Below are positions 508-1,709 of a stretch of 64,000 nt of DNA, in pieces. The notes under the pieces were generated by a model that was not told the origin of the DNA, searched no databases, and saw only the letters and a program-made list of their open reading frames with translations. This DNA is from Pseudomonadota bacterium (GTDB lineage: Bacteria > Pseudomonadota > Gammaproteobacteria > CALCKW01). Numbering within the stretch: the stretch's first letter is position 1; each line of letters starts with the position of its first letter. A program made the translations under genes and the position numbers. Location of the stretch: the NCBI GenBank assembly GCA_039196715.1, contig JBCCUP010000005.1:1-64000 (forward strand), in the 5' to 3' direction.

Positions 508-610
508 CACACGCCGCTGGCGTGTGATCAACTCGAAACCGCTCAGGCGGTTTCTCGCCCTGCGGGCGGCGCTCTGCGCCGTCTCCCACGCCGCTGGCGT
601 GTGATCGAAC
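508..610. repeat. Multi-hairpin repeat, unit A
   Basis: A run of inverted repeats. An isolated hairpin CACACGCC-GCT-GGCGTGTG (508-526) is followed by four closely spaced stems: AAACCGC/GCGGTTT (536-553), GCCC-TGC-GGGC (557-567), GGCGC-TCT-GCGCC (568-580) and CACGCC-GCT-GGCGTG (587-601). Immediately after the last stem comes GATCGAACCCTC, which resembles the T-arm of the neighbouring tRNA-Ser; a second T-arm-like palindrome GGGTTCGAACCC follows at 619-630. The same four-stem order recurs in units B, C and D. The 374-700 gap holds this unit and no gene that I can support. Confidence 0.8.
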
Positions 611-700
611 CCTCTGCTCGGGTTCGAACCCTCTCTCGGGAAAGTACGTCGTGCTTCTCTGGCTCGGCGGCGGCTCACACCGACGCGATATTCTGGGATA

Positions 701-793
701 TGGCGGAGAGAGAGGGATTCGAACCCTCGATGGAGCTATAAACCCCATACTCCCTTAGCAGGGGAGCGCCTTCAGCCACTCGGCCACCTCTCC
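701..793 (-). tRNA. serV: tRNA-Ser (anticodon GCU)
   Basis: Read on the minus strand this is a full class II cloverleaf. The 7-bp acceptor stem (GGAGAGG with TCTCTCC, one G-U pair) is followed by discriminator G and an encoded CCA. The anticodon stem is CTCCC/GGGAG around the loop CTGCTAA, giving anticodon GCU for AGC/AGU codons. A long variable arm and a T-arm GAGGG-TTCGAAT-CCCTC complete it. The position just downstream of csrA on the same strand matches the csrA-serV arrangement of E. coli. The tRNA-Arg genes that commonly follow there are absent from the window. Confidence 0.96.
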
Positions 794-802
794 GTGCCCG
801 AA

Positions 803-808
803 ATTATA
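803..808 (-). promoter_or_regulatory. -10 element of the tRNA-Ser promoter
   Basis: On the minus strand a perfect TATAAT lies nine bases upstream of the first tRNA nucleotide, followed by a GC-rich discriminator, as is usual for stable-RNA promoters. I see no convincing -35 hexamer. The corresponding position in the duplicated copy (1063-1068) reads CATGGA, so that copy has lost its -10. Confidence 0.6.
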
Positions 809-892
809 CACTATGGAACACGGCTGACGCTGGCTACGACACTGGATTTTCGACGTCACAATGACGTGTGCTGGCTATCCACGGCGGGATGG

Positions 893-964
893 ATTCGCAA
901 TCGCTTGAAGCGATTCCTCACCCTGCGGGCGCTGCTGCGCAGCGTCTCCCGCGCGCTGCGCGGG
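893..964. repeat. Multi-hairpin repeat, unit B
   Basis: Begins with GATTCG and carries four stems in the same order as unit A: AATCGC/GCGATT (899-915), CCC-TGC-GGG (921-929), CGCTGC-TGC-GCAGCG (930-944) and CCCGCGC-GCT-GCGCGGG (948-964). The last stem runs straight into ATCGAACCCTCGATGGAGC, which is the T-arm and variable-arm sequence of the decayed tRNA-Ser copy. The hairpin block therefore sits exactly where that tRNA's acceptor stem should be. Confidence 0.85.
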
Positions 965-1053
965 ATCGAACCCTCGATGGAGCTATAAACCCCATCTCTC
1001 TTAGCTGGGGGACGCCGAGTCGGGAGCGCCTTCAGCCACTCGGCCGCCTCTCC
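965..1053 (-). pseudogene. Decayed tRNA-Ser copy
   Basis: The 5' half (GGAGAGG acceptor strand, D-arm GCCGAGTGGCTGAAGGC) and the variable arm (GGGGTTTATAGCTCC) match the intact tRNA-Ser 260 bp away. The anticodon stem is interrupted by extra bases around GACTCGGCGTC, so a normal stem cannot form. The 3' strand of the T-arm and the acceptor stem are gone: after TTCGATCC the sequence enters hairpin unit B instead of TCTCTCCGCCA. The -10 box is also lost. I see no way this could give a functional tRNA. Confidence 0.85.
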
Positions 1054-1150
1054 GTGCGCAGATCCATGCACTGTGTCACACGGCTGACGCTGGTTACGGC
1101 GGTGGGTTTTCAGCCTCGGAATGACACGCGCTGGCCATTCATGGCGGGAG

Positions 1151-1306
1151 TGATTCGGGATCGCTTCAGGCGATCCCTCACCCTTCGGGCGCGACTTCGT
1201 CGCGTCCTCACACCTACCGGTGTGGGTGATTCGCAATCGCCTCGGGCGATCCCTCACCCTTCGGGCGCGACTTCGTCGCGTCCTCACACCTACCGGTGTG
1301 GGTGAC
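1151..1306. repeat. Multi-hairpin repeat, tandem units C and D
   Basis: Two near-identical units with a 76-bp period. Stem 1 is GGGATCGC/GCGATCCC (1157-1177) in C and ATCGCC-TCG-GGCGAT (1236-1250) in D. Stem 2 is CCC-TTC-GGG (1181-1189; 1257-1265), stem 3 CGCGAC-TTC-GTCGCG (1190-1204; 1266-1280) and stem 4 CACACC-TACC-GGTGTG (1209-1224; 1285-1300). The order matches units A and B, but stems 3 and 4 use different bases with pairing kept. Each unit is preceded by GATTCG. Confidence 0.88.
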
Positions 1307-1469
1307 GTGAATTCCCACACGACGACGCCCGCTCTGCAGGCACGACACGGCGCCGGCGAGACACCGGGCCTGTCCGGGATTCGGGTGGCGTTTGGGGGGG
1401 ATGAGCGCGCTGCGTCGCGTAGGTCACGCGATGCAGCACCGCTGGTGTGCTGTGCGTCCGGCGGGGAAA
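1307..1469. other. No gene seen
   Basis: Together with the repeats, this fills the long gap between the tRNA-Ser and csrA. I see no protein-coding signal, tRNA or further hairpin unit here. Short open frames through 856-1498 are translations of the repeats. Confidence 0.5.
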
Positions 1470-1499: not shown

Positions 1500-1709
1500 T
1501 CAGCTGGCTTGTGAGACGTCGTTGGACGCGTCGTCCGAGTCCGCTTGCTCCTGTTTGATCCGATCGTAGATTTCCTGCCGGTGCACTGAGACTTCCTTCG
1601 GCGCGTTCACGCCGATACGCACCTGGTTGCCTTTGACGCCGAGCACGGTCACGGTGACTTCGTCACCGATGACCAGCGTTTCACCGACCCGCCTGGTCAG
1701 AATCAACAT
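1500..1709 (-). CDS. csrA: Carbon storage regulator CsrA/RsmA
   Basis: A 69-residue protein beginning [12 protein letters not shown] and containing [18 protein letters not shown], the core of the CsrA family. CsrA binds GGA-containing hairpins in mRNA leaders and alters translation and stability of carbon-flux, motility and biofilm genes. Both the N-terminal LTRR strand and the VHR(Q)EIY segment that make the RNA-binding face are present. Length is normal; the C-terminal tail is acidic and Ser-rich. An AAAGGAGA site lies at good distance before the ATG. The order alaS-lysC-csrA-tRNA-Ser is typical of many gammaproteobacteria. A roughly 220-bp gap to lysC leaves room for its own promoter. Confidence 0.97.

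Follow-up and report, generated by a model that had tools for sequence, protein, structure and literature searches.

The DNA analysed here comprises the first 64,000 nucleotides of contig JBCCUP010000005.1 (referred to below as the window) of the gammaproteobacterial genome assembly GCA_039196715.1. A tRNA-Ser(GCT) gene on the minus strand is flanked by csrA and by the left end of the contig, and is accompanied by four repeat units (A to D), which are termed tRNA-linked repeat (TLR) cores in the list below for reasons that are given later. All four units read best on the minus strand, which is the tRNA sense, and each contains hairpins in the order P3, P4, P5 (CCCGNAGGG) and P6. Read in this sense the order of features is csrA, D, C, a tRNA-Ser pseudogene whose T-loop holds B, the live tRNA-Ser gene and A. 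Two covariance models were used: R1 was trained on this genome, with A and D among the training units, and R2 was trained on other genomes only, with the E. coli tyr repeats in its training set; the R2 values listed below refer to a search of the 4.95 Mb genome.

505–531 (about), minus strand: partial copy of the first hairpin of unit A, ATCACACGCCAGCGGCGTGTGG (direct repeat family D3; sequence).
525–611, minus strand: unit A, TLR core downstream of tRNA-Ser(GCT) (R1 95.4 bits, E = 5.4e-24, training member; R2 E = 3.6e-15).
612–642, minus strand: repeated T-arm halves before unit A, GAGAGAGGGTTCGAACCCGAGCAGAGGGTTCGA (sequence; repeat D6, inverted repeat I8).
701–793, minus strand: functional tRNA-Ser(GCT) (ARAGORN; Rfam RF00005, 57 bits).
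887–972, minus strand: unit B, TLR core in the T-loop of the tRNA-Ser pseudogene (R2 E = 2.9e-13; alignment with the tRNA).
966–1057, minus strand: tRNA-Ser pseudogene, 5′ part through TTCGA (repeats D1 and D5; alignment).
1147–1232, minus strand: unit C, TLR core in head-to-tail tandem with D, period 76 (R2 E = 2.7e-10; repeat D2).
1223–1309, minus strand: unit D, TLR core adjoining csrA (R1 E = 1.1e-15, training member; R2 E = 3.9e-6 over 1241–1302).
1500–1709, minus strand: csrA, a neighbour counted outside the element (open reading frame; same-genus orthologues 86–87% identical).

Unit A starts 90 nt behind the tRNA-Ser(GCT) gene and consists of GGTTCGA, the four hairpins and GAGTTGATC. 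The partial hairpin copy at its far end may be either a truncated further unit or a tail duplication, and the T-arm motif at 612–642 is the inverted/direct T-arm motif of TLRs that also occurs in other genomes. GGTTCGA precedes both A and B, GAATCAC (from unit D) precedes C, and unrelated sequence precedes D; B ends in GAATCC and C in GAATCA, both of which resemble the 3′ half of a T-arm. Alignment with the tRNA identified the 3′ tail of unit B (GAATCCATCCCGCCG) as a degenerate tRNA 3′ end, the only tRNA 3′ copy in the window, with none recognisable after A, C or D. The live gene lies downstream of units C and D, and B is fused to a tRNA-Ser copy in which the anticodon arm is altered and the -10 box degraded; a TATAAT-like box (GTGTATAATTTC) stands ahead of the live gene, and ARAGORN made no tRNA call for the pseudogene at 966–1057. 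No GGA was found in the hairpin loops of the four window units. A sequence-only reading of this DNA had placed four units, each with four small stems in a fixed order, at roughly these positions, and this description holds. It had overlooked the extra stem-4 copy at about 505–531 and the tRNA-Ser pseudogene fused to unit B. The GATTCG that it described before the units is present, but is really the complement of a CGAATC that comes after the last hairpin and is similar to the 3′ half of a T-arm.

Base pairing was conserved well beyond these four copies. In 12 units from this genome 91.9% of cells paired, with changes on both sides in 15 of 24 pairs; pairing at this level was reached by none of 500 shuffles and was lost when the partners were slid. 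In a wider set of 136 distinct units, drawn from many genera, 95.5% of cells paired and double changes were seen in 23 of 24 pairs. A chance origin of the units was ruled out by the shuffles, the slid partners and the models. The earlier description of a structured family, rather than of random palindromes, is borne out. R1 identified approximately 20 units in this genome, clustered on contigs C5, C56, C101, C34 and C21, and a tRNA 3′ copy is present with those on C56 and C101. Contigs stop inside TLR arrays at G000:C34:43736-44007 and G000:C21:65083-65314, which suggests that the assembly probably broke there and that the partner tRNA genes lie off the contig. When units C–D were compared with the genome by plain BLAST, one C34 unit alone stood out beyond the window and the remaining matches were short; a plasmid search with the locus returned mainly tRNA-Ser-sized stretches. 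Matches on C95 were rejected as family members, the end of this contig (L008, 1380–1773) carrying a different tandem repeat with CTCCCAC/GTGGGAG palindromes.

The sequence-only reading knew of no named family with this layout. One does exist, the tRNA-linked repeats (TLR; Rfam RtT, RF00391), to which the window units almost certainly belong. Searched against the tyrT-tyrV region of E. coli K-12 MG1655, where rttR is annotated, R1 produced exactly four matches, all of them tandem repeats behind tyrT/tyrV. R2 matched E. coli TLRs outside its training set at serX (three), in the lysT-valT cluster (five) and at rrnB behind the 5S rRNA, with E. coli rrB matched at E = 2.3e-10. At the gathering threshold Rfam reported the tRNA alone in the window and made no RtT call. 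Below the threshold, RtT gave a weak full-length match at 882–1006 (22.5 bits; gathering score 45) and a match behind tRNA-Ser(TGA) on C56 (20.1 bits), and AaHKsRNA22 (RF02902) gave weak full-length matches on C56 and C21 (25.8–28.8 bits; gathering score 39.8). The family sX4 (RF02223) was tried as a further relative and set aside: its trailer ends in GGGGGGUGAGA, the motif found before Xanthomonas TLR cores, which is suggestive but sub-threshold.

The E. coli TLRs were reportedly described by Egan and Landy in 1978 and by Rudd in 1999. They have been known since 1978 without a known function, and K-12 contains 22 of them at ten loci, each of which closes with 18–19 bp that match the 3′ end of the preceding tRNA or rRNA exactly (Stenum et al. 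2021, PMC8144298). The family resembles the units described here in the 3′-end copy of a tRNA or rRNA, the position behind that gene, the tandem copies and the four-hairpin core. In contrast, units C and D of the window have no tRNA 3′ copy and lie upstream of a live tRNA, B occupies the T-loop of a tRNA pseudogene that is nearly complete, and the 3′ copy after A has been lost; the window holds new, rearranged members of a known family. RtT and E. coli rttR share the architecture, although the window units score below the RtT threshold, do not follow tRNA-Tyr and are known here as sequence. AaHKsRNA22 of Aggregatibacter has the same four-hairpin order but is a separate Rfam family, matched below threshold. 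The RrA, RrB and RrF repeats of the E. coli rRNA operons differ from the window units in their CsrA-binding GGA loops and in their position behind 5S rRNA between two terminators. NCBI labels serX and proK copies in many E. coli genomes as RtT sRNA. The accompanying remark "processed from tyrT transcript" on copies behind serX or proK (L280, L281, L286) cannot be right there.

A common layout was apparent in the wider family: a tRNA gene is followed by a spacer, an inverted copy of the tRNA 3′ end, GGTTCGA, the four hairpins and a direct copy of the 3′ end of the same tRNA with CCA. The core measures 65–90 bp and tandem periods are about 155–182 bp. A same-strand tRNA gene was found upstream within 1 kb in 121 of 147 matches among the pattern matches listed, the pattern itself having required GGTTCGA and AATCC. 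The first copy lies most often 60–90 nt behind the tRNA, and the hosts are tRNAs for Ser, Tyr, Lys, Arg, Glu, Gln and Pro. The tail after the core was identical to the 3′ end of its own tRNA in 67 of 103 cases and at least 90% identical in 72 of 103; with tRNAs for other amino acids none (0%) reached 90%. The inverted 3′ copy, which is usually present, stands directly before GGTTCGA (for example GCTGGGGCGCCAGGATTTGAACC behind tRNA-Gln in L158), and a helix of at least 8 pairs between this stretch and the unit's own tail was found in 53%, the figure being 8% both for the tails of other tRNAs and for shuffled sequence. Hairpins are kept by shape and not by sequence. Tandem GA is flanked by a Y-R pair, formed between the Y of GGGYGA and the R of GARTC in 97 of 101 units. 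The common core defined here for the first time consists of the four hairpins, CCCGNAGGG and this Y-R pair.

A DNA pattern search of 84,980 species genomes found at least 117 stretches, and among the matches listed nearly all were from Gammaproteobacteria, including Enterobacterales, Xanthomonas and its relatives, Salinisphaera, Idiomarina, Woeseiaceae and uncultured lineages. R1 gave matches in 116 of 369 sampled genomes of this class (about a third). The sequence-only reading had proposed a covariance-model search for further copies with compensatory change; this search found both, in the genome itself and among its relatives. The four stems keep one order throughout, from Xanthomonas to Escherichia and the genus of the window. 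At E ≤ 1e-5, R1 matched 61 of 399 genomes of the phylum, some from other classes, and one family there has many copies. Outside Gammaproteobacteria (L293–L299 in G381; L300–L306 in G431) the four-hairpin core was seen dispersed inside longer repeats, in seven to eight near-identical copies per genome, mostly away from tRNA genes. We also noted a core with GGTTCGA context just upstream of a putative signal recognition particle RNA gene (L287, about 1500–1590, G386).

Copy number varies by whole repeats. At serX of E. coli the number of annotated units is zero, one or three, and the loci differ by stretches that run from tRNA 3′ end to tRNA 3′ end, with the tRNA and its terminator intact. Within the genus of the window, the csrA-tRNA-Ser(GCT) locus has no unit in one congener (G002), and two ordinary downstream TLRs in another (G003), and in the window it carries the rearranged set; in the incomplete genome of a third (G001) it was not detected. 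A role specific to csrA was dropped because a congener has the csrA-tRNA-Ser pair without units and because units follow many tRNAs. Of the two neighbours that had been remarked upon, tRNA-Ser and csrA, the latter is not part of the system. A second rearranged locus lies on C101 (L074, 620–1300, minus strand), where the live gene has ordinary TLRs downstream and, upstream, three tRNA-Ser(GGA) pseudogenes that each hold a core in the T-loop. At least one of these pseudogene copies is preceded by a TATAAT-like box. In E. coli MS20677 the end of a chromosomal rearrangement falls within the first hairpin of a serX TLR, joined to sequence beside dgcT (L283, about 990).

Homologous recombination between tRNA 3′ copies would change the copy number of such arrays and leave an intact tRNA each time. 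The unit B pseudogene may have formed by recombination between the T-arm of the tRNA and a T-arm copy within a TLR, an event that would explain the pseudogene-core fusions both in the window and on C101, and tandem duplication of the resulting stretch could have placed three units (D, C and B) in the interval from csrA to the live tRNA. The locus signal in the core-similarity matrix of the genus is weak, and movement from one tRNA gene to another is accordingly not proven.

RNA helices accept G-U pairs but not A-C mispairs, and the two were scored symmetrically in the TLR hairpins P3, P4 and P6, which contained 14 G-U and 15 A-C in 1761 cells; on the model alignment the ratio of G-U to A-C in TLR stems was 18:24. 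The controls from the same loci behaved as RNA, with ratios of 59:6 in 149 tRNAs and 28:0 in 50 terminators between tRNA and element (Fisher p = 5e-6). Hairpin P2, which holds the T-arm copy, was nearer the tRNA pattern (18:6). The loops are strand-specific, since in the tRNA sense GNA accounts for 146 of 218 triloops and its complement TNC for one, and sense-strand tetraloops are more often GNYA (32) than GNRA (16). GNA and GNNA loops are very stable in DNA, and the loop favoured by RNA would be GNRA. An intrinsic terminator was found between the tRNA and the element in 57 of 91 surveyed cases by a rough scan, which also lets through a few doubtful stems, and in none of the 16 cases behind tRNA-Tyr, where E. 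coli rttR lies. Together, the symmetry of the stem mismatches, the loops and the terminators favour folding of single-stranded DNA in the tRNA sense, or correction of DNA palindromes, over a general RNA role. On this sequence evidence it appears to be palindromes in DNA, rather than helices in RNA, that are maintained in the stems.

One alternative is that the repeats act as RNA. TLR sRNAs would be made by read-through from tRNA and rRNA operons, cut free by tRNA 3′-processing enzymes at the copied 3′ end, and serve as decoys for CsrA/Hfq or for the processing enzymes. This accords with the rttR annotation in E. coli, with the existence of AaHKsRNA22 as an Rfam sRNA family of the same layout, with the bias of the loops toward the sense strand (which fits RNA and single-stranded DNA equally) and with the CsrA motif GGA, present in other species in 20 of 95 P3 and 26 of 77 P6 loops as against 26 of 414 control hairpins, with TCC in none. 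In many species the P3 and P6 loops read C-A(N)GGA, like the CsrA consensus (L125, L153, L161, L164, L221, L228), and GNA loops take this place in others. RrA, RrB and RrF are transcribed, processed RNAs that bind Hfq and CsrA in vitro, and intrinsic terminators are leaky, rrnB T1 halting 87% of transcripts (PMC8144298). Against this stand the lack of a G-U bias in the stems, the position of the majority of copies beyond a terminator, the window units without GGA loops, the scores below 0.01 of 19 E. coli tRNA-operon TLRs as CsrA targets and the retraction of the early amino-acid-starvation phenotype (PMC8144298). RNA roles of single members, such as RrA, RrB and RrF or those with GGA loops elsewhere, are compatible with the data; as an explanation of the family the RNA reading seems to us rather improbable, and the suggestion that the window units serve 3′ processing or stability of the tRNA transcript found no general support. 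We consider it unlikely, to a greater degree, that the units are a functionless by-product, that is, palindromes in fast-changing tRNA trailers kept perfect by replication template switching and copied by unequal crossing over, with order and linkers held by descent alone. The near-perfect Watson-Crick stems with symmetric mismatches and the variation in copy number by repeat unit would be expected from such a process, but drift alone would erase the class-wide conservation of P5, the Y-R pair and the GNA loops, and the four-stem order is unchanged across distant genera.

The sequence-only reading had also suggested a REP/BIME element; elements of this kind are palindromes with a conserved head tetranucleotide that a RAYT transposase spreads, and they share with TLRs the palindromic intergenic DNA hairpins. 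Two Y1-transposase (RAYT-like, Y1_Tnp-family) genes are indeed present in the genome (G000:C1:122741-123073 and C13:55037-55300), but both lie on contigs without strong units and neither is linked to a TLR. REP hairpins are single or paired and scattered between genes, in contrast to a four-stem core bound to tRNA 3′ ends, and we regard this origin as very improbable. At proK of E. albertii and E. coli (L271, L285, L286) a REP-like sequence breaks a further TLR copy in its first hairpin, from which it follows, for E. coli proK, that REP and TLR are distinct. Least credible of all is the idea that unit B is an intron-like insert removed from the transcript of a working tRNA-Ser: it does sit precisely at the T-loop, flanked on either side by tRNA-like sequence, but the host copy is damaged in its anticodon arm, tail and -10 box and escapes ARAGORN, and the similar C101 copies lack a cognate acceptor tail. 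The account that we favour, and hold as a whole to be reasonably probable, is that the window units are TLRs whose copy number changes by recombination and whose hairpins are maintained at the level of DNA. Single-stranded DNA in the tRNA sense would fold at the GNA/GNNA loops, and either mispairs would be repaired to perfect palindromes or a DNA-handling enzyme would recognise the folded strand; the RNA that some copies yield (rttR, RrA/B/F) would be secondary. The transcription of some TLRs counts against this account, and we identified no enzyme acting on TLR DNA. A more specific version, in which the cores are substrates of a DNA-level system, a single-stranded hairpin array that enters tRNA 3′ ends at the T-loop by insertion or copying, adopts the local tRNA 3′ sequence and in other Pseudomonadota has spread genome-wide, is offered tentatively and appears to us doubtful.

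TLRs have mostly been seen as an enterobacterial oddity, and these data extend their range over Gammaproteobacteria into other Pseudomonadota. The family itself was already known; what is added is the common core, the range and evidence on the level at which the stems are maintained, with the comparison of G-U and A-C in the stems speaking against a general RNA role. A shared definition would join the Rfam families RtT and AaHKsRNA22 and would mend annotations that label every copy a tyrT-derived sRNA. An old question is thereby recast as concrete issues of DNA hairpins, copy-number change and tRNA 3′ ends, and if the reading of TLR cores as DNA-level substrates is true, TLRs would be a mobile or recombination element and not an RNA gene family.
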